A stretch of DNA of 64,000 nucleotides from assembly GCA_015067305.1 (NCBI GenBank), contig SVMT01000003.1, positions 55,972-119,971 of the forward strand, in the 5' to 3' direction. The position numbers were made by a program, and so were the translations under genes. This DNA is from Oscillospiraceae bacterium. GTDB lineage: Bacteria; Bacillota; Clostridia; Oscillospirales; UBA644. Positions 2,840 to 44,038 of the stretch are shown piece after piece. Within the stretch, counting starts at the first letter, position 1, and each line of letters begins with the position of its first letter. Under the pieces are notes generated by a model. The model was not told where the DNA came from and ran no database searches. It saw only the letters and a list, made by a program, of their open reading frames with translations.

Positions 2840-4498
2840 TTATATTGTGTGTGATGTTCGTAACATTTCGTCGGCTGTCGCTAAAAGCGACTCCGTAATA
2901 TTTATACCGCCCATTATTCGGGCAAGTTCCTGTCGTCTTTCTTCATGCGAAAGTTGAGTGAGAACTGTATGTGTACGGTCATTGACCGTTTCCTTAACTA
3001 TTTTAAAATGAGTATCTGCATATGCTGCGATCTGTGCAAGATGGGTAATAACCAATACTTGTCCACAGGCAGACATTTCTTTAAGTTTTATAGCAACTTT
3101 CTGAGCCGCTTTACCGCTGATACCTGTATCTACTTCGTCAAAGATCATAGTCTGAATAGAATTATCAGCCAAAACATTTTTGATGCTCAACATAATTCTG
3201 GAAAGTTCGCCGCCGGAGGCGATCTTATTCAAGGGTTTAAGATCTTCACCTACATTTGCCGAAAGCAAAAATTCAACTTCATCAGAGCCTGTCTTATCAA
3301 ATTTCTTGTTTCTGATATTTACAGCAAATCGAACCTTAGGCATTTCAAGGAAACTCAAAGTTTCAATCATTGCGATCTCAAGTTTAGCAGCAGCCTCAAC
3401 TCTCGTTGCAGTCAAAGCCTGAGATTTAGCTCTCATTTCAGCCTTTGCAATTTTGAATTCTTCAGTCAGATCCTGCAATAAAACATCTGAGAATTCAATA
3501 CTTTCCAACTCTTTCTGGGCTTTGGCAAGATAATCGAAAATTGCCTCAATTGAATCACCGTATTTCATTTTTAAGCGATGTATAAAATCCAAACGTTCTT
3601 CTATCAGATCCAATTCATTCGGGTCAAAATCCAATTTATCAGAATACTGATTAAGATTTTCGATTATTTCATTTATATTTTCGGATATATCAATAAGCTT
3701 TTCATTTACATAGTTCTGACTGTTATCATATCGGGAAAGAAGTTTGGATTCCCTGATGCAACTTGCAATCATATCGTGAACATTAACATCGTCGTTTGAT
3801 AACAGATTTCTAACAGCGTTCAGACTATCAAGAATCTTCTCACTGTTTGCCAGGATCTCCTGTCTTTTTTCTAACTGCTTATCTTCGTCCTCTTTAAGTG
3901 CCGCAGTTTCAATTTCATTTATATGATATTTAAGGATCTCTATCCTTTTCTCTTTTTCACTTTCATTTGCAGAAAGAGCTTCAATTTTACGTTTAATTCC
4001 GATTGCTTTACAATAAGCTTCATAATACTCGTTTTTTACAGCTTCATTTTTAGCGTATTTATCTAAATAATAAATATGTACTTCAGGGTCAAGCAAAGCA
4101 GTATTATCATGTTGTCCATGGATATTGACAAGCTTTGTACCAATCTCTCGTAATATCGAAACGCTTACAGGACGGCCGTTTATTCTTGCAACACTTTTTC
4201 CTTCAGCAGAAAGTTCTCTTGAAAGGATGACTTCAGGATCGGCTCCATAACCGAGTTCCTCCAACTTATTACAAATAGATTCGTCTATATCAGTAAATAC
4301 TGCGCTGACAAAAGCTTTCTTCTCCCCTGTTCGTACCATATCACGTGACACACGCTCACCAAGGAGCATATTTATTGCATCAATTATGATACTTTTACCT
4401 GCACCGGTTTCACCAGTCAACACAACGAACCCCGAAGTTATTTCAACATCGAGGCTATCAATAATTGCTATATTTTCAATGTGAAGATTGGTCAACAT
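2840..4498 (-). CDS. recN: DNA repair protein RecN
   Basis: SMC-like ATPase that acts early at double-strand breaks. Walker A GETGAGKS is at about residues 29-36. A long coiled-coil middle follows. The ABC signature region is ASGGELSRIMLSIK and Walker B is MIFDEVDTGISG, then VLVITHLAQIAAYADTH, all in the usual order. Length is about 552 aa, normal for RecN. The ORF track starts one codon earlier at a GTG (4501); the ATG at 4498 behind GGTGAG is preferred. The gene follows argR closely. The argR-recN adjacency is conserved in Firmicutes and belongs to the tlyA-nadK-argR-recN block downstream of OLE RNA. Confidence 0.96.
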   Translation of the reverse strand: MLTNLHIENIAIIDSLDVEITSGFVVLTGETGAGKSIIIDAINMLLGERVSRDMVRTGEKKAFVSAVFTDIDESICNKLEELGYGADPEVILSRELSAEGKSVARINGRPVSVSILREIGTKLVNIHGQHDNTALLDPEVHIYYLDKYAKNEAVKNEYYEAYCKAIGIKRKIEALSANESEKEKRIEILKYHINEIETAALKEDEDKQLEKRQEILANSEKILDSLNAVRNLLSNDDVNVHDMIASCIRESKLLSRYDNSQNYVNEKLIDISENINEIIENLNQYSDKLDFDPNELDLIEERLDFIHRLKMKYGDSIEAIFDYLAKAQKELESIEFSDVLLQDLTEEFKIAKAEMRAKSQALTATRVEAAAKLEIAMIETLSFLEMPKVRFAVNIRNKKFDKTGSDEVEFLLSANVGEDLKPLNKIASGGELSRIMLSIKNVLADNSIQTMIFDEVDTGISGKAAQKVAIKLKEMSACGQVLVITHLAQIAAYADTHFKIVKETVNDRTHTVLTQLSHEERRQELARIMGGINITESLLATADEMLRTSHTI

Positions 4499-4512
4499 CA
4501 CTACTCACCGCT

Positions 4513-4980
4513 TTAAGCGTTTAAAATATTAGTTATATTATCTACGATAGACTTAGCAATATCTATCGATTTCGCAGCTATAAATATAGTATCATCACCG
4601 GCTATCGTTCCTACTATCTCACCGTTATCAAGCGTATCTATTGCAGCACAAGCCCCCTGGGCCATACCGGCAAAACATTTTACGACAACAAGATTCATTG
4701 CATTATCTACAGAAACGATACTATCTCTCATTATACTGTATGTTTTGGAAGGCATTGGCTTTTTGCCGTCCCCCTGAGAATCAGAACATTCATATCTATA
4801 CTTATTTTCATTAGTAAGAGTTTTATAGAGATGCAATTCTTTAATATCTCTTGAAACAGTTGCTTGAGTTGTTTGGAAACCGGATTGAATCAAAAGCTCC
4901 GTAAGCTCATCCTGGGTTTCGACGGGAGTTGATTTAATTATCTCAAGTATACGCGCATGGCGTTTTTCTTTATATTTCAC
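4513..4980 (-). CDS. argR: Arginine repressor ArgR/AhrC
   Basis: Hexameric transcription factor that binds ARG boxes with arginine as co-repressor. The N-terminal winged helix spans residues 1-70 and includes TTQATVSRDIKELHL. The C-terminal oligomerisation/arginine-binding domain spans about 85-150 and has the diagnostic AGDDTIFIAA. The start is a GTG with AAGGGG six bases upstream. The 155-aa length is standard. It sits between nadK and recN, as in many Firmicutes; no arginine biosynthesis genes are in the window. Confidence 0.95.
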   Translation of the reverse strand: MKYKEKRHARILEIIKSTPVETQDELTELLIQSGFQTTQATVSRDIKELHLYKTLTNENKYRYECSDSQGDGKKPMPSKTYSIMRDSIVSVDNAMNLVVVKCFAGMAQGACAAIDTLDNGEIVGTIAGDDTIFIAAKSIDIAKSIVDNITNILNA

Positions 4981-4990
4981 GACTGACCCC

Positions 4991-5821
4991 TTACTTTATT
5001 TTCTTGGAAAGTATATTATAAAATGAATCATTATCAAATGTAATAGTTTTTATTTTCTTTTCAGCTAAACGGACTTGTACTACATCATCAGCTTCAAGTT
5101 GGAAATTGTCAAGACCATCTATAGTTAGGTAGCCCACATTGCCTCTTCCAGGTGTTGAGGCTGCTTCAAGAACCGACGAGTCCTTAAAAAGAATACTTCT
5201 GCCATTAAATGAATGAGCACAAATTGGAGTTACTGCAATAGTTTCAAGCTCCGTATCTATTATTGGTCCCCCTGCTGAAAGGGAGTATGCTGTTGAGCCT
5301 GTAGGAGTTGAAAAAATCAATCCGTCTGCCCTGTAAGATGTTATTTCCTGACCGTTGCAATACAAATTTATATTCATAATCTGCGTCCAGTTACCGTGTG
5401 AAATTACTGCATCATTCAAAGCAATTACATCTTTACAGATAGTTCTGTTTTCATTTCCTGCCGAAATATTAAGCACCGATCTATACTGAATACTATACTC
5501 ACCACTGAACAAAGCATCTAATTTAAAGTATTCCGTGGGTTCCATTGAAGCCATATAACCTGTCGTACCCATATTTATACCGAGAATAGGCTTATCATAA
5601 GCATATGCCGATTTTACGACCTTAAGTATAGTGCCGTCGCCACCGACAGTTATGATAAAATCACATTCATTTATTGCATCATCAATCTTTGTAAAAACTG
5701 AACATCCAACAAAAGAATCAGACAAAACAACTGCGCCTTTAGATGTCAAATATTCAACTATTCTTGAAGATACTTCAAATCCTTTGTCTTTCTCTGGATT
5801 AGAAATCAATGCAATTTTCAT
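4991..5821 (-). CDS. nadK: NAD kinase
   Basis: Phosphorylates NAD to NADP. The signature GGDGTILK is at about residue 60, followed by GINMGTTGYMASMEP, ADGLIFSTPTGSTAYSLSAGGP and a C-terminal NGRSILF region, all typical of the PpnK family. The ORF track begins at a GTG (5833), but the GGAG lies directly against that codon; the ATG four codons later (5821) gives a better spacing and 276 aa. The gene lies between tlyA and argR in the conserved tlyA-nadK-argR-recN order. Confidence 0.95.
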   Translation of the reverse strand: MKIALISNPEKDKGFEVSSRIVEYLTSKGAVVLSDSFVGCSVFTKIDDAINECDFIITVGGDGTILKVVKSAYAYDKPILGINMGTTGYMASMEPTEYFKLDALFSGEYSIQYRSVLNISAGNENRTICKDVIALNDAVISHGNWTQIMNINLYCNGQEITSYRADGLIFSTPTGSTAYSLSAGGPIIDTELETIAVTPICAHSFNGRSILFKDSSVLEAASTPGRGNVGYLTIDGLDNFQLEADDVVQVRLAEKKIKTITFDNDSFYNILSKKIK

Positions 5822-5848
5822 TGTAATTCGCACTCCGTAAGTAATAAA

Positions 5849-6619
5849 TCACAGATTTTTTAATTCTGTATCAAATAAAGTCTTTATCAGTTCATTGATA
5901 GATCGCTTGTTTTCGGAATAACTGAAATACGAAATAAACTCTGTATTACCGTCTCCGCCTTTGATTGGAGAAACTGAAATACCATTCAAATTCAAACCAT
6001 ACCTTAAAAACTCTTCAGCAACATTGGAGATAACAGTTTTATATTGACTTTTATCTTTTACTATACCACTCTTATTTGTTTTGGCATTTTCAAATTGAGG
6101 CTTGATCAAACATATCAAATGAGTTGGCTTAAATTCAGCTATCTTATATGCAATCTTTTCAAGTGAAATAAAAGAAACGTCAACAACTATAATATCTACA
6201 GGATCAAAATCTGCAGGATCACAATCTTTTATATTTGTATTTTCAAGATTTACTACCCTATCATCATTTACAAGTTTTTCTGCAAGCTGACCATGTCCAA
6301 CATCTATGGAATATACTTTTGTAGCACCATTTTGAAGTAAACAATCAGTAAAACCGCCTGTTGAAGCACCAATATCCATCGCAATCGTGTCTTTAATATT
6401 TAAACCAAATACATTGATTGCTTTTTCAAGCTTAAGCCCACCACGTCCGACATATTTTAAATAATCGTTTATTTCAATGGAAACTTTTTCACATACTTCT
6501 AAAGAAGCTTTATTTACAACTGTTCCGTCAATAAAAACACAACCCTCTTTGATCAATGCCTGTGCATACTGACGGCTTTTTAATGAAAACTTTTCCTGAA
6601 TGTATTTATCTAATCTCAT
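5849..6619 (-). CDS. tlyA: TlyA-family rRNA 2'-O-methyltransferase
   Basis: S4 RNA-binding domain at about residues 1-60 (MRLDKYIQEKFSLKSRQYAQ) fused to an FtsJ-like SAM methyltransferase. The family linker YVGRGGLKLEKA is followed by the SAM-binding motif MDIGASTGGFTDCLLQNGA. DIIVVDVSFISLEKI and LIKPQFE complete the fold. This is the TlyA/YqxC family; the M. tuberculosis homologue methylates 16S and 23S rRNA, and I infer the same role here. Its ATG overlaps the oapA stop (ATGA), so the two are probably translationally coupled. tlyA directly after oapA is part of the known OLE operon context. Confidence 0.93.
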   Translation of the reverse strand: MRLDKYIQEKFSLKSRQYAQALIKEGCVFIDGTVVNKASLEVCEKVSIEINDYLKYVGRGGLKLEKAINVFGLNIKDTIAMDIGASTGGFTDCLLQNGATKVYSIDVGHGQLAEKLVNDDRVVNLENTNIKDCDPADFDPVDIIVVDVSFISLEKIAYKIAEFKPTHLICLIKPQFENAKTNKSGIVKDKSQYKTVISNVAEEFLRYGLNLNGISVSPIKGGDGNTEFISYFSYSENKRSINELIKTLFDTELKNL

Positions 6620-7218
6620 TTTTTATTTTTACTGAAGAATCTTTCCGGAACAATAAAACATAGTATCCTTCCGGCAATATATATTATGTTTTCGCAATAA
6701 TTCATAGCAAAATTCTTACCCAATGCCTTACCTCCAATGGTAAGAGCCGCATTAAAAGCAGTCATAAGCATCGCAGAAAGTATTTCAGGAATCGGCAGAA
6801 CAGCTGAAATTTCAACAGCTATTACTGCAGTCATCGTACCACTGATGATACCGCAAATATCGCCGACGACATCATTGCAAATATTTGATACCGTAGAAGC
6901 TTTAGTTACAAGATACAGACAAGCCTTTGCCCCTACGACCTTTCTGGCCGCCATTGAATTAAATGGCTTGGGGTCTGCGGCAGTTACAGCTGTACCAAGA
7001 AGGTCGAAAAGAATTCCCAAAAAAATAAACAGCAAAAGCAAGATAAAAGCGATAACAACATTTACTTCACTGAGTGCACTTTTTGAAATATATGATAAAG
7101 TCGCCGAAATACAGAACGACAACACCATTACTTTTATGACCCATGAATGATTACCGTTGCTCTTTTTTGTATCCTTTTGCTGCTTTTTAGGTCGGGGGGA
7201 ATTATCTGAATTTTCCAA
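6616..7218 (-). CDS. oapA: OLE-associated membrane protein OapA (predicted)
   Basis: Integral membrane protein, 200 aa (about 21 kDa) from a TTG at 7218 that has AAAGGTG six bases upstream. The ORF track's extension to 7326 runs into the structured RNA and has no ribosome site, so I reject it. There is a short basic N-terminus (PRPKKQQKDTKK). About four hydrophobic segments follow (VMVLSFCISATLSYIS, VVIAFILLLLFIFLGILFDLL, ICGIISGTMTAVIAVEI, ILSAMLMTAFNAALTIGG), then a basic tail. A DxxxD motif (NDVVGD, D116/D120) is present; I recall such a motif as functionally important in OapA. Size, topology, position immediately 3' of the putative OLE RNA and coupling to tlyA all match OapA. Known role of the family: it binds OLE RNA and places it at the membrane. 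The identification rests mostly on context. Confidence 0.85.
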   Translation of the reverse strand: MENSDNSPRPKKQQKDTKKSNGNHSWVIKVMVLSFCISATLSYISKSALSEVNVVIAFILLLLFIFLGILFDLLGTAVTAADPKPFNSMAARKVVGAKACLYLVTKASTVSNICNDVVGDICGIISGTMTAVIAVEISAVLPIPEILSAMLMTAFNAALTIGGKALGKNFAMNYCENIIYIAGRILCFIVPERFFSKNKK

Positions 7219-7224
7219 AACATT

Positions 7225-7875
7225 CACCTTTATGTATGATAATAAAATATAGAGATGATAATATTCAAAGTAAATCTTGCGCCTTAGGTCAAGTAGGTTT
7301 CCCCATACCCTACCTGTTGTCGCCAATCAGGCAGTTTCCTTTTGAAGGGTACGGTACCGCGTTACCGACGATACGACTTGATTGCCACTTAGAACGCACT
7401 GCAATCCCTTGAATACAGAATAAATAATTCTCAGTCTAGGAGTTTTCCTCAACAGTATCATGATACTCTTAGTCTCTTTTGCAGATATGATTTCTTAACG
7501 CAAAGCACTATATACTGTGGCCGCAGTATATAGCCCGAACCGTTATCCGCCATATCCACTCAAGACAGGCTACTCTGCATACAACCGAACTCATACATCA
7601 GCACTTCTAATGCTGATGCGTAAATTGCTTCAAAGAGAACGACCGCATTGCAGGTTCAATCCTGAGTCGTGGTAAGCAAATCCACAAGTACAGGTCTCCG
7701 TGAGTGAAGGGACATTAACTGTATGCCATTACAGATGCCCGGCACTCTACCTTCCAGCACCCACCCCAGACTGGGCGTAAGAAGCAAGCACAAGAAGTTT
7801 CATCGATATGCCCTTCGGTTGATTTTTAGGCCAACCCTGGTAGTCCACAATACCGACTAGAATACTGTATCATCA
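7225..7875 (-). ncRNA. ole: OLE RNA (ornate, large, extremophilic)
   Basis: About 650 bases with no ORF above 60 codons apart from an implausible N-terminal extension of oapA. Many strong hairpins are visible: CTATATACTG/CAGTATATAG (7508-7533), CATCAGCA/TGCTGATG (7597-7618), GTATCATGATAC (7455-7466), and a terminal hairpin with GTAGG/CCTAC near 7290-7312. The RNA lies directly upstream of a four-TM protein of OapA size and within nusB-xseA-xseB-ispA...tlyA-nadK-argR-recN, the published OLE locus order. Published OLE RNAs are about 610 nt. The 5' end is set from the promoter at 7882-7910; the 3' end is approximate and merges into the oapA ribosome site without a terminator. tmRNA and RNase P RNA were considered and do not fit. 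The call is inference from context and size; a covariance search was not possible here. Confidence 0.85.
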
Positions 7876-7881
7876 AAGATA

Positions 7882-7910
7882 ATTATAGCATAAAAAAACG
7901 TTTTATGCAA
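7882..7910 (-). promoter_or_regulatory. SigA promoter of OLE RNA
   Basis: On the minus strand: -35 TTGCAT, 17-bp spacer, -10 TATAAT preceded by TGC (extended -10). Predicted start is near 7875. This gives the OLE RNA-oapA-tlyA block its own transcription start, in addition to any read-through from the ispA-side genes. Confidence 0.8.
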
Positions 7911-7981
7911 TAGAAAATTGTATATTTTAATTTTTGTTAAGATTTTTTCCGATTTTTTTATGCAAACATATTACAAAACAA

Positions 7982-8012
7982 GATCACTTCATACTTTCAG
8001 TATAAAGTGACC
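7982..8012 (-). terminator. Terminator after the DUF212 gene
   Basis: Minus-strand stem GGTCACTTTATA / TATGAAGTGATC (two G-U pairs) with a 7-base loop, followed by TTGTTTTG. It lies just after the DUF212 stop and before the OLE promoter, so the upstream nusB-ispA operon is at least partly separated from OLE RNA. Confidence 0.6.
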
Positions 8013-8019
8013 TCATATA

Positions 8020-8472
8020 TTATTTTAAAAATAAGATCCAATACAACAATGAAATGATACAACCAAGAACACAACCCATAGCAACTTCAAGTTTAGTATG
8101 CCCCATCAACTCTTTGAATCGTTTTGATCTGATCTCAAAATTGTCAACATTCCAGTTTTCGATGATCTGGTTTATTATCTTTGCCTGTTCTCCAACTTCA
8201 TAGCGTACATTTGCCGCATCATAAACAGTAATAAACGCAAATGATGCTGCTAAAGCAAATTCAACAGAGGCAAATCCTTTCAAGATAAATATCATCGAAA
8301 CCAAAGCGGAAACCAATGCACTGTGAGAACTGGGCATACCACCCGAACCGAAAAATCTGTCCAATCGAAGTTTTCGGTCAATTATACTCTCAGCTACGCC
8401 TTTGATCGCCTGTGCAAAAAACCACCCCAAAACAGCGCAATTAAGATAATGATTCGATAAAATTCCCAACAT
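8020..8472 (-). CDS. Divergent PAP2-family (DUF212/YuiD-like) membrane protein
   Basis: 150 aa with hydrophobic segments at both ends. The family signature GGMPSSHSALVSAL lies at about residues 43-56, YDAANVRYEVGEQA at about 85-98, and ELMGHTKLEVAMGCVLG near the C-terminus. These are the conserved blocks of the DUF212 divergent PAP2 family (B. subtilis YuiD). The substrate is unknown; the PAP2 relationship and the position after ispA suggest action on a lipid or isoprenoid phosphate, which is only inference. It occupies the position often held by dxs in OLE loci. Confidence 0.85.
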   Translation of the reverse strand: MLGILSNHYLNCAVLGWFFAQAIKGVAESIIDRKLRLDRFFGSGGMPSSHSALVSALVSMIFILKGFASVEFALAASFAFITVYDAANVRYEVGEQAKIINQIIENWNVDNFEIRSKRFKELMGHTKLEVAMGCVLGCIISLLYWILFLK

Positions 8473-8492: not shown

Positions 8493-9374
8493 TCAGTTAT
8501 TTCTCGATGCCAAATATACCGCCAAGGTCTGAAGGAAACCGTTTTTATCATAAGGTTTTACAGCCTCTATCGCTTTTTGTGTATAATCTTCTACCAATTT
8601 TTGAGACTGATCCAACCCATATATATTAACAAATGTAGTTTTTTCTTCTGCGGCATCTTTACCGAGAGTTTTACCCATATCTTCAATTGTTCCCGAAACA
8701 TCAAGAATATCATCACGGATCTGGAATGCCAAACCAATATTATCAGAATATATTTCTGCTGCCTTAAAAACATCATCTGATGCGTCAGCCGCCAAACAAC
8801 CAAGTAAAGCAGAAGCTTTTAGCATTGCAGCTGTTTTCAAATTATGTATATTCAAAACTTCAGATTCAGTAAGTCCCGGCTTATTTTCAAGATCAAGGAC
8901 TTGTCCACGGACTATACCGTTTTTACCTGAGGCATCAAGAAGGATTCTGATACCTTCAATGATCTGTTTATCTGATAGACCTGTTTCATATCCGTCAGAA
9001 ATGATCCAAGAAAAAGCTTCACCGTAAAGTCCCATTGCCGCAAGAGCCGCCGTAGATTCTCCAAATACAACATGGTTCGTAGGAATTCCTCTGCGCAAAG
9101 AATCGTTATCCATAAACGGCATATCATCAAAGATAAGTGAATATGTATGAACCATTTCAAGCGCACAAGCAAAAGGTAAAGCCTTATCTGCATCATTTGA
9201 GACCATATCGCAAAATGCAAGACAGATAATAGGCCTTATTCTCTTTCCACCTGCAAAAATACTATACCTTAATGCGGAATCAAGTTTGTCACTCTTATTT
9301 TCAGGGAGATAACGTTCCAACGTACTGTTTATCTTCTCAGAATACATTTCAATATAATCATTCAACGTCTTCAT
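8493..9374 (-). CDS. ispA: Farnesyl diphosphate synthase (geranyltranstransferase)
   Basis: Head-to-tail prenyltransferase making farnesyl diphosphate from DMAPP and IPP. The first aspartate-rich region is DDMPFMDND and the second is IRDDILDVSGT. GGKRIRP, near residue 40, binds IPP. The preferred start is the ATG at 9374, nine bases after GGAGG, giving 293 aa; the track's earlier start has no ribosome site. The start overlaps the 3' end of xseB by about 17 bases, so translation is coupled. xseA-xseB-ispA is a widespread bacterial arrangement. Confidence 0.95.
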   Translation of the reverse strand: MKTLNDYIEMYSEKINSTLERYLPENKSDKLDSALRYSIFAGGKRIRPIICLAFCDMVSNDADKALPFACALEMVHTYSLIFDDMPFMDNDSLRRGIPTNHVVFGESTAALAAMGLYGEAFSWIISDGYETGLSDKQIIEGIRILLDASGKNGIVRGQVLDLENKPGLTESEVLNIHNLKTAAMLKASALLGCLAADASDDVFKAAEIYSDNIGLAFQIRDDILDVSGTIEDMGKTLGKDAAEEKTTFVNIYGLDQSQKLVEDYTQKAIEAVKPYDKNGFLQTLAVYLASRNN

Positions 9375-9588
9375 CTTCATCGACCTCCGTAACCATTTGG
9401 ATCCTTTGTTTGGCATTCTTTATTCTATCGGAACACAATTCAGCTAGTTTGGTACCTTCAGAAAAAAGTTCTAACGCTTCATCAAGTCCACATTCGCCCT
9501 TTGATAAAATCAAGTTTATTTCCTGTATGCGATTTAATGCATCTTCAAATTTTAATTCTTCAGTTTTTGATGATTTCCTCTGCGGCAC
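9358..9588 (-). CDS. xseB: Exodeoxyribonuclease VII small subunit
   Basis: 76-aa acidic protein with the XseB pattern LKFEDALNRIQEINLILSKG, then LDEALELFSEGTKLAELC, forming the two-helix small subunit that binds XseA. The C-terminus is highly acidic (DEDEDVE). It overlaps xseA by 29 bases and ispA by 17 bases, so the three are translated as a coupled block. Confidence 0.94.
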   Translation of the reverse strand: MPQRKSSKTEELKFEDALNRIQEINLILSKGECGLDEALELFSEGTKLAELCSDRIKNAKQRIQMVTEVDEDEDVE

Positions 9589-10756
9589 CTTTAACTACCC
9601 CATCTCTCATTTTCATTTCAAATTTTTCGCCTATAATAATATCATTTATACTTTTCAAAACCTTACCGTCCTTTGAGGGTAAGGCAAACCCCCTCATCAA
9701 CACCGAAAGAGGATTCAACGCTTCAAGTTTTTCACATTCATTTATTATTTCTCGCTCTTTGACATTGATCATATGCTTTATATATGAACCCAAATTAGCT
9801 TCTGCATTTTTAAACATTTGTTCTTTGGAAAAGATAACTGATGATATACTCAAGCCCGAAGAACAAATTTCTATCAGATGTTCATACTTATATACAAGAT
9901 CCTGAACAGCTCTTGCCATAGAAGTTTTTTGATATTCCAGTTCATCAAGAATTGAATCTCTGTGAGGCACGACCAATTCAGCAGCGGCAGAAGGTGTAGG
10001 GGCTCTGAGATCAGCAACAAAATCAATTATAGTAAAATCAATTTCATGTCCGACCGCACTGATTATAGGAATATCCGATTCAAAAACTGTCCAAGCAAGC
10101 TTTTCACTGTTAAACTCTATGAGATCTTCATATGAACCGCCGCCACGTGTAACGATTATAACATCCACATCTTTTGTTTCATTAAAATGATTTATCGCTT
10201 CTATTACAGTTTCTGCGGCACCAAGCCCTTGAACCTGACAAGGAAACAACACCGGAACTGCTAAAGGATAACGACGCTCAAGAATACTGATAACATCAAA
10301 GAATGCAGCACCTGTCGGAGAAGTAACGATTCCAATACGTTCCGGATATTCAGGAATCGGTTTTTTATACTGAGGATCAAAGAGTCCTAATTCTTCAAGT
10401 TTATCTTTGAGCTTATTGAATGCCGCCTGATATGCCCCAATACCGTCAGGTGCAATATCTTCCGCATACAGTTGATAAGTACCGTCACGTTCATAAAGGG
10501 ATACTCGTCCCTTTACAAAAACAGAGATTCCGTCCTCCAGAAAAAAAGCAAGCCTGTCTGCATTTGATTTAAACATTACTGTTTTGATTGCAGCATTTGA
10601 ATCTTTCAAAGTAAAGTAAACATGTCCGCTTTTCAAATGTCTGGTAAAATTAGATATCTCACCTTTTACAGTCACAGAACGAAGATTCATATCACTTTCG
10701 ATAAGAGAACGTGTATACATATTCAATTGTGAAACTGTAAGCGGTTTAGGATTCAT
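9560..10756 (-). CDS. xseA: Exodeoxyribonuclease VII large subunit
   Basis: Catalytic subunit of the single-strand exonuclease. The N-terminal OB fold spans about 1-100 (VKGEISNFTRHLKSGHVYFTLKD). The catalytic domain has RIGIVTSPTGAAFFDVI, VIIVTRGGGSYEDL, and SAVGHEIDFTIIDFVADLRAPTPSAAAE. A coiled coil and C-terminal domain follow. The 398-aa length is slightly short but within range. The start overlaps the stop of the TsaD-like gene by ATGA. Confidence 0.96.
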   Translation of the reverse strand: MNPKPLTVSQLNMYTRSLIESDMNLRSVTVKGEISNFTRHLKSGHVYFTLKDSNAAIKTVMFKSNADRLAFFLEDGISVFVKGRVSLYERDGTYQLYAEDIAPDGIGAYQAAFNKLKDKLEELGLFDPQYKKPIPEYPERIGIVTSPTGAAFFDVISILERRYPLAVPVLFPCQVQGLGAAETVIEAINHFNETKDVDVIIVTRGGGSYEDLIEFNSEKLAWTVFESDIPIISAVGHEIDFTIIDFVADLRAPTPSAAAELVVPHRDSILDELEYQKTSMARAVQDLVYKYEHLIEICSSGLSISSVIFSKEQMFKNAEANLGSYIKHMINVKEREIINECEKLEALNPLSVLMRGFALPSKDGKVLKSINDIIIGEKFEMKMRDGVVKGAAEEIIKN

Positions 10757-11715
10757 ATTTCACCCTTATTAAACATTAAATTATTATATGCAAGATACGC
10801 AATGCCAACAGCATTATCACCGGAAAGCTCAACAGAAGCAAAATTCGGTGGTTCATAGTCGTTTTTACTAAAGGAATCGTTTATTATATTCTTAATGCGT
10901 TCATTCGCCATTACTCCGCCCGCACAAAGAACAGGTCTGGAATCTTGTTTCTGGAGAAACAACAGCATCTCAGAAAGTGTATAACCGCACACTTCTGTTA
11001 TATAAGAGGCAATATATTCGGAAGTTTTACCTTGATTTATGAAATCAGAAACTTTATTTTCATAACCTGAAAGACAGCAATCACCATCTTTAAGATTTAT
11101 TTTGATCTTAAATTTATCTTTACAGCCATCGGCCAGATTTTCAAGTTCCGGTCCGCTGGGAAAACTCAATCCGAGAGCTACACCTGTCCTATCTATGAGT
11201 TGTCCGATACTGATATCTCTGGTCTTTGCAGATATAGTAATATTCTCAATACCTGCGACAGATACGATTTCAGTCGTACCCCCTGAAGCATGAACAGCAT
11301 AAAAAGGATGTTCAAACAAATCCAAACGGCCGCAAGATACCAGTCCTGCGGCAATATGACCTTGTTGATGTGAAAATCTGAGACAAGGGACATTCATAGT
11401 ATGAGCTAAGGCTTCAGCAACAGAGCAACCAAATGAAAAGCAGGGCATATAAGACCCTGCAGTATTTCTTGGGGCAAATGAAACGCCGACACCCTTTATT
11501 ACTGTATTTTCAAGGTCCAATTTATCAAAAACCTCAGAAAACTGTTTTACATGGGCAAAGACGGCATCATTTTGTCTTAAACCTTTTTCTCCGAAAGGAA
11601 CAGGTAAAAGTTTTCGGGAACTGATATATGTACCATCAGTATAATATAAAGCCACAGAAGTACGATAATTTGAAGTATCTATGCCAAGGAAAGCTTCCCT
11701 ATTTATTTCTGACAT
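10753..11715 (-). CDS. TsaD/Kae1-like ATPase paralogue (peptidase M22 family)
   Basis: 320-aa ASKHA-fold protein. The N-terminal phosphate loop is FLGIDTSNYRTSVAL. Metal-ligand candidates are H116 and H120 in SHQQGH, plus the Asp of SGDNAVGIAYL near residue 300; VHASGGTTE and LCAGGVMANE match other TsaD motifs. It is shorter and more divergent than true TsaD, and it sits between nusB and xseA, where Clostridia carry an extra copy annotated as O-sialoglycoprotein endopeptidase. Whether it takes part in t6A tRNA modification is unknown. It overlaps nusB by 17 bases and xseA by 4 bases. Confidence 0.8.
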   Translation of the reverse strand: MSEINREAFLGIDTSNYRTSVALYYTDGTYISSRKLLPVPFGEKGLRQNDAVFAHVKQFSEVFDKLDLENTVIKGVGVSFAPRNTAGSYMPCFSFGCSVAEALAHTMNVPCLRFSHQQGHIAAGLVSCGRLDLFEHPFYAVHASGGTTEIVSVAGIENITISAKTRDISIGQLIDRTGVALGLSFPSGPELENLADGCKDKFKIKINLKDGDCCLSGYENKVSDFINQGKTSEYIASYITEVCGYTLSEMLLFLQKQDSRPVLCAGGVMANERIKNIINDSFSKNDYEPPNFASVELSGDNAVGIAYLAYNNLMFNKGEI

Positions 11716-12094
11716 ATGAGCCTAAAACTCCATTCACGTATGAAGCAGATTCCTGTGTATCATATTTTTTTACAAGATTTACAGCCTCATTTATAGCTAC
11801 AGACTCAGGTACATCATCCTGATCGGATATTTCATATACCGCAATTCTGAGCGCAGAGAGCGCAACTCTTGAAAGACGAGATATACTCCTGTTATTGAGA
11901 TACTTTTCAATGGAAGAATCAACTTCTGTTAATTTCCCATGAATCTCCTCAAAAGCATGTTTTGCATAATCGTCTATTTGAATTTCTCCCTCTTCGGTAG
12001 CATTTTCAATTATCTCATTAAAATCAGCGTCTTTATAAAAAGTTGACTGAAACATAAGAATAAACAATGCTTCTCTTGACTCGCTTCTTTTCAT
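11699..12094 (-). CDS. nusB: Transcription antitermination factor NusB
   Basis: 131-aa all-helical protein that joins NusE/S10 at boxA RNA. The N-terminus SRSREAL-type helix (MKRSESREALFILMFQ) and the conserved C-terminal block AINEAVNLVKKYDTQESASYVNGVLG are diagnostic. Its ATG overlaps the stop of the Asp23 gene (ATGA). The order Asp23-nusB-xseA is typical of Firmicutes. Confidence 0.95.
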   Translation of the reverse strand: MKRSESREALFILMFQSTFYKDADFNEIIENATEEGEIQIDDYAKHAFEEIHGKLTEVDSSIEKYLNNRSISRLSRVALSALRIAVYEISDQDDVPESVAINEAVNLVKKYDTQESASYVNGVLGSYVRNK

Positions 12095-43872: not shown

Positions 43873-43918
43873 ATAACATTACGCAGAAAACATACGAATA
43901 TAAAATCCATATGAACAA

Positions 43919-44032
43919 AAGTTTCTTTCATCCGGACTTTAACCGTCGGCACAGGAATCTCACCTGTTCGGCACCTGAAAAGTGTTAGCGGGCTTTACCG
44001 CCGGTAGAGAATTACACTCAACCCCAAAACTT
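43919..44032 (-). promoter_or_regulatory. FMN riboswitch (RFN element)
   Basis: Minus strand shows the RFN core: CTACCGGCGGTAAAGCCCGC, then CAGGTGAGATTCCTGTGCCGACGG and TTAAAGTCCGGATGAAAGAA. The closing P1 pairs AAGTTT (44032-44027) with AAACTT (43924-43919). Followed by a terminator before ribU. Confidence 0.97.
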
Positions 44033-44038
44033 AAGTAT

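Follow-up and report, generated by a model that had tools for sequence, protein, structure and literature searches.

What is the long noncoding stretch that lies directly in front of a small membrane-protein gene in the genome of this uncultured, gut-type clostridial bacterium (Oscillospiraceae), and what might the two do together? An earlier note, made from the letters alone, proposed that positions 6616-7910 of the window (the whole stretch of 64,000 nucleotides analysed here) hold an OLE RNA and its membrane partner OapA, and it named a covariance search with RF01071 as one check. We know of no biochemical job for OLE, which is among the largest conserved bacterial RNAs. In the following sections, we describe the RNA, its gene neighbourhood, its partner proteins, and the mechanisms by which they may act.

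Identification of the OLE RNA

Two features make up the locus.

7239-7889, minus strand, OLE RNA gene; span of the RF01071 match, with a transcript probably covering about 7875 to about 7250
6616-7218, minus strand, oapA, 200 aa; TTG start at 7218, ribosome-binding site AAAGGTG at 7225-7231, stop codon overlapping tlyA

The covariance search with RF01071 (OLE) matched 7239-7889 of the minus strand with 444 bits (E 4.4e-127), far above the cut-off of 50 bits, and the match covers model positions 1-616 of 616. The reading proposed in the earlier note is borne out. This is the top OLE score within the bacterial family, and the window's genome carries a single copy. The score places the RNA in the full-length class and not in variant 1 or 2, by a cut of 390 bits that was taken from PMC11332333 and set there with a similar but non-identical model. 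Of the highly conserved consensus letters, 212 of 249 are kept in the window copy and 37 differ. The model has 159 pairs; the window copy forms 144 of them as standard pairs and 8 as non-standard ones, and the other 7 touch a gap.

The stretch had also been described as about 650 hairpin-rich bases free of open reading frames, and this description agrees with what was found. If a spurious extension of the oapA frame at its upstream end is set aside, open reading frames in 7239-7889 reach 58 aa at most, on either strand. The predicted folding free energy of 7250-7875 (minus strand) is -204.7 kcal/mol, compared with -180.2 +/- 6.2 kcal/mol for shuffled sequences (z -4.0). A tmRNA, an RNase P RNA, or another RNA family had been named as readings that would overturn the OLE assignment, and all were looked for. 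A permissive Rfam search returned no other RNA family on the OLE stretch at E<=0.1; RNase P RNA and other Rfam families are excluded because only RF01071 matches. The tmRNA reading is excluded as well, since ARAGORN found no tmRNA anywhere in the window. Elsewhere in the window, an ordinary full-length FMN riboswitch (RF00050, 103 bits) lies at 43916-44035 on the minus strand.

The identity of the feature as a full-length OLE RNA is practically certain. It is a further member of a known family and no new kind of RNA; published surveys have already counted OLE in about 2,800 species.

Structural elements of the RNA

The following elements were located within the RNA.

7868-7874, minus strand, 5' strand of the end-closing helix P1, GAUGAUA, pairing with the 3' end
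7254-7260, minus strand, 3' strand of helix P1, UAUCAUC, pairing with the 5' end
7799-7807, minus strand, strand J4a/5 of the kink turn, AUCGAUGAA, where OapC binds in the OLE RNA of Halalkalibacterium halodurans
7694-7701, minus strand, kink-turn partner strand J6/7, ACGGAGAC
7515-7526, minus strand, tip of hairpin P9 with a self-complementary GGCC loop, through which two OLE copies form a symmetric kissing contact in the dimer
7596-7618, minus strand, extra hairpin in a variable arm of 52 nt, compared with 2 nt in the model; the arm is probably P7/P8, a name that we infer

The window RNA resembles the Rfam OLE in its full length, its conserved boxes, P1, the P9 kissing loop, the kink-turn strands, and its site upstream of oapA. 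It differs in one variable arm, which has a 52-nt longer loop and the extra hairpin. P1 belongs to the published OLE model (PMC12265935). Across 62 OLE RNAs, the longest run of pairs between the 5' and 3' ends averaged 7.8, compared with 6.5 when partners were shuffled; the maximum mean in 500 shuffles was 6.9, with shared ancestry left in the comparison.

In H. halodurans, OapC is known to bind at the OLE kink turn (PMC9723947 and PMC12286853). The window's J4a/5 strand has the commonest form, seen in 42 of the 67 OLE RNAs compared, and the RNA retains both strands predicted to form the OapC site (AUCGAUGAA and GGAGAC). The P9 loop reads GCGGCCAC in the window, and its GGCC is kept in all 25 OLE hairpins that were read. 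This GGCC is the kissing contact in the cryo-EM OLE dimer (PMC12286853, PMC12265935). A helix of about 12 bp, P3, has been proposed to cross the membrane. In the window, 8 pairs between GGUAUUGU and AUGAUACU are possible by eye, and cofolding of both segments favoured a local hairpin.

Gene neighbourhood and transcription unit

The genes on the minus strand run in the order nusB, TsaD-like, xseA, xseB, ispA, DUF212, OLE, oapA, tlyA, nadK, argR, and recN.

11699-12094, minus strand, nusB (PF01029)
10753-11715, minus strand, TsaD-family protein between nusB and xseA (PF00814, 82.8 bits)
9358-10756, minus strand, xseB and xseA (PF02609 for xseB; xseA by position and sequence)
8493-9416, minus strand, ispA-type polyprenyl synthase (PF00348)
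8020-8472, minus strand, DUF212 divergent PAP2 family protein, upstream of OLE (PF02681, 150.6 bits)
7978-8016, minus strand, terminator-like hairpin 3' of the DUF212 gene and upstream of the OLE promoter (18 pairs, loop of 3, T-rich tail)
7882-7910, minus strand, OLE promoter: TTGCAT (7905-7910), 17 nt, TGC-TATAAT (7882-7887)
5849-6619, minus strand, tlyA, S4 and FtsJ-type methyltransferase (PF01479, PF01728)
4991-5833, minus strand, nadK (PF01513, PF20143)
4513-4980, minus strand, argR (PF01316, PF02863)
2840-4501, minus strand, recN (PF02463, position and order)

All members of the nusB-xseAB-ispA-tlyA-argR-recN arrangement that had been expected were found, but this order is not exact: the TsaD-like and DUF212 genes are additional, and nadK lies between tlyA and argR. 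Several relatives also seem to have a DUF212-like gene in front of OLE.

An own promoter had been predicted for the RNA, and a perfect TATAAT -10 box with an extended TG was found at 7882-7887, together with a weak -35 element (TTGCAT) at a 17-nt spacing. A simple scanner overlooked this promoter because its -35 element matches only 3 of 6 positions. In most relatives, TTGAAA or a similar hexamer, 17 nt, and TGnTATAAT occur at a near-constant distance upstream of the CAGTATYCTAGTC box. This spacing indicates that the promoter is conserved and not a chance match. The earlier note extended the feature to 7910. At its 5' end, the Rfam match already includes ~14 nt of promoter, and the RNA should therefore start near 7875. 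From the sequence, the RNA probably runs from ~7875 to ~7250.

Terminator-like hairpins number 2 in the region, compared with 0.5 expected. The hairpin upstream and the conserved promoter suggest a separate transcription unit for OLE. No terminator was found between OLE and oapA/tlyA, and we infer that OLE, oapA, and tlyA are cotranscribed. In H. halodurans, the ole cluster is reported to form a single polycistronic transcript, whereas the OLE of the window has its own promoter with a terminator upstream.

OapA and its CNNM-like fold

The oapA frame begins most plausibly at TTG 7218, behind AAAGGTG and about 20 nt from the OLE span; the longest-ORF start of this frame, at 7326, falls inside OLE. 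Its TGA overlaps the tlyA ATG at 6619, an overlap that had been noticed from the letters. A search against an OapA family profile had been suggested, but neither Pfam nor NCBIfam holds a model that names OapA. The identity of the protein was therefore tested by its DxxxD motif, synteny with OLE, co-occurrence with OLE, and a CNNM-like fold, and by these the proposed homology holds.

The DxxxD motif, which marks OapA and is absent from CNNM domains (PMC11332333), is D116-V-V-G-D120 in the window protein. It is present in all 80 homologues and is invariant in a 49-sequence alignment. The AlphaFold2 model (pLDDT 87.7) has long helices at 24-49, 54-80, 107-140, and 145-173, in line with the 200-aa protein with four TM helices first read from the sequence. 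With this model, the top four Foldseek matches are the CNNM structures 7m1t (two chains), 7m1u, and 7cff, with probability 1.00, TM 0.47-0.56, and weak E-values (0.02-0.23). OapA has been likened to 7M1U in published work, with which the Foldseek result agrees. A sequence profile of OapA found no solved structure, and viral contigs held no OapA relatives.

The protein resembles the OapA of H. halodurans and clostridia in its size of about 200 aa, its four long helices, DxxxD, and a gene directly after OLE. It is 37-56% identical to the homologues fetched, a set that leaves out the H. halodurans sequence itself. Known OapA proteins bind OLE RNA 2:1 and localise it to the membrane, where OLE is an abundant RNA of ~600 nt. 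The CNNM Mg2+ transporters MpfA, CorB, and CorC share the fold of the membrane domain. Unlike them, OapA is shorter, has no CBS and CorC domains, carries DxxxD, and shows a reciprocal distribution. An MpfA-type transporter is excluded as a reading of the window protein, since the CNNM profile reaches 14.5 bits, below the Pfam cut-off of 28.4, and 200 aa is too short to include CBS and CorC. The protein encoded downstream of OLE is OapA, as DxxxD, the CNNM-like membrane model, and the linkage to OLE indicate.

Linkage of OLE and OapA across genomes

In 76 of the 80 named genomes that encode a close OapA, OLE lies directly upstream of oapA, a few of the loci being partial at contig ends. An Rfam check confirmed OLE at 17 of 20 OapA loci. 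In the same bacterial family (20 genomes), OLE and OapA are both present in the same 12 genomes and both absent from the same 8; in the order, 79 of 247 genomes have OLE. The window very probably carries one ole-oapA unit, made up of a full-length gene for OLE RNA and the partner gene oapA.

The four separations were mostly dissolved on inspection. At L120, the oapA locus is cut by a contig end and the genome has OLE. In an Oscillibacter metagenome genome (L066, see L144), a 2.4-kb lipoprotein-like gene (1-2388) separates OLE from oapA. In a Bacilli metagenome genome (L099, see L143), oapA and OLE sit on separate contigs, and the neighbours of OLE are recG-like and glycosyltransferase genes on its two sides. 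In the metagenome assembly L073, OapA is present and no OLE was found. The confinement of OapA to OLE genomes holds in 20 of 20 genomes of the family, and this metagenome-assembled genome is the one case among the 80 in which OapA is present and no OLE was found.

OapB, OapC, and the kink turn

According to work on H. halodurans and on clostridial structures, OLE forms dimers, attaches to an OapA dimer in the membrane, and brings in OapB and OapC (PMC9723947, PMC10898510, PMC11332333, PMC12286853, PMC12265935). Of the 12 OLE genomes of the family, 10 have a homologue of OapB (YbzG, PDB 7k9b) encoded between map and infA, and these homologues match 7k9b with E 0.003. OapB was not found in the window's own incomplete assembly, and a recognisable infA is missing there and in G014. 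A general KOW family search of that genome returned only a NusG-sized protein, which is uninformative for OapB. In G002 and G015, which have no OLE, map abuts infA with no OapB between them. Next to a second infA, G002 also has an OapB-like frame, a weak match (E 0.002) that may be contamination or a real copy.

A homologue of OapC (YbxF, PDB 3v7e) is present in the window's genome at its usual place between rpoC and rpsL (L024 1474-1716, contig C29 of G000), and it matches the solved YbxF with E 2.7e-6. The RpoC of this contig is 78-79% identical to that of the genus, so contamination is not suggested, although it is conceivable. Protein searches found no OapC in the relatives, and in those that could be read, rpsL follows rpoC directly without ybxF. 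A search of the relatives for the L7Ae family gave two weak matches by nusA-infB genes, which look like YlxQ.

The kink-turn bulge (compared in L001-L012) is GAU in 4 family members, including the window, and UGU in 8. C85 and the GA neighbours that follow it (numbering from PMC9723947), which are important in H. halodurans, are kept. All 8 UGU relatives and 3 GAU relatives are without detectable OapC. A strict tie of OapC loss to the changed kink turn was dropped, since these 3 relatives keep GAU. OapC loss may permit the change from GAU to UGU, in an association that is not strict.

Anticorrelation with MpfA

Full-length CNNM proteins of the MpfA type, mostly in frames of 416-475 aa, occur in all 6 OLE-lacking genomes that are at least 71% complete. 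None was found in the 12 OLE genomes, whose OapA proteins match the CNNM profile only marginally. Two further OLE-lacking genomes (57-61% complete) are uninformative for MpfA. With genomes treated as independent, a split like this has a probability of 1 in 18,564, but the six OLE-lacking genomes come from two genera (one genus of five genomes and one other genome), and the evidence therefore amounts to about two events, not six. An anticorrelation of OLE and MpfA has been published for Bacillota (PMC11332333) and is repeated here within one family.

A broader scenario is that OLE-OapA and MpfA replace each other in the family, that OapB is lost with OLE, and that the OapC-binding bend is changing from GAU to UGU in species that lost OapC. 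We consider this combination unlikely. If it is true, the family would be a natural replacement experiment, in which OLE is shown to regulate a metal transporter as one of its parts. This family of gut-type anaerobes offers both OLE-bearing and OLE-lacking sister genera for comparison, and the anticorrelation with MpfA holds genus by genus, so the replacement hypothesis can be tested with close relatives.

Proposed mechanism and alternatives

H. halodurans cells that lose OLE become sensitive to Mg2+, cold, ethanol, and poor carbon sources (PMC11332333, PMC10898510). By analogy with this organism, the OLE RNA of the window would be made in one transcript with oapA and tlyA, starting at its own promoter, and trimmed at its 3' end. 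Two copies would then pair, using the P9 GGCC kissing loop among other contacts, as in clostridial cryo-EM structures, and bind an OapA dimer in the membrane together with OapB and OapC. The membrane-bound RNP may sense or adjust divalent-metal (Mg2+/Mn2+) and energy stress, with OapA serving as a CNNM-like membrane core and OLE taking the place of the CBS/CorC domains of MpfA-type proteins. This idea is already in the literature, where authors hold several OLE hypotheses, including a ribozyme. By analogy, we tentatively regard metal homeostasis through such a core as the most likely single mechanism. The CNNM-like OapA, the MpfA split, the H. halodurans phenotypes, and the location of OapB by infA and of OapC at rpoC-ybxF-rpsL point to it. 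The weak CNNM E-values and the small number of independent MpfA/OLE losses speak against it, as does the fact that these phenotypes are broader than metal stress.

The CNNM-like fold and the distribution reciprocal with MpfA would also be expected if OapA were an ion transporter working alone, with OLE merely localising or stabilising it. We think this improbable, as OLE and OapA are lost together and never singly in the family, and the conserved RNA greatly exceeds the size required of a tether. It is similarly improbable that OLE is a ribozyme for which OapA is a membrane anchor or a substrate-delivery subunit. The size, complexity, and conservation of OLE speak for this proposal (PMC11332333), against which stands the lack of a known catalytic activity.

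OLE ends about 20 nt before the start region of oapA with no terminator between them, as would a long riboswitch-like 5' leader that controls oapA translation and has no function of its own. However, this reading is highly improbable. A 2.4-kb gene intervenes at L066, and at L099 OLE is on another contig among unrelated neighbours. The dimer loop and the protein-binding strands are conserved far from oapA, and in H. halodurans OLE is reported to be abundant and to act in an RNP. It is hardly credible that the 37 changed conserved letters and 8 non-standard model pairs mark a decaying, non-functional relic, since the match is full-length with 144 standard pairs, the promoter, dimer loop, kink-turn strands, and oapA are all intact, and the family's highest OLE score, 444 bits, belongs to this copy.
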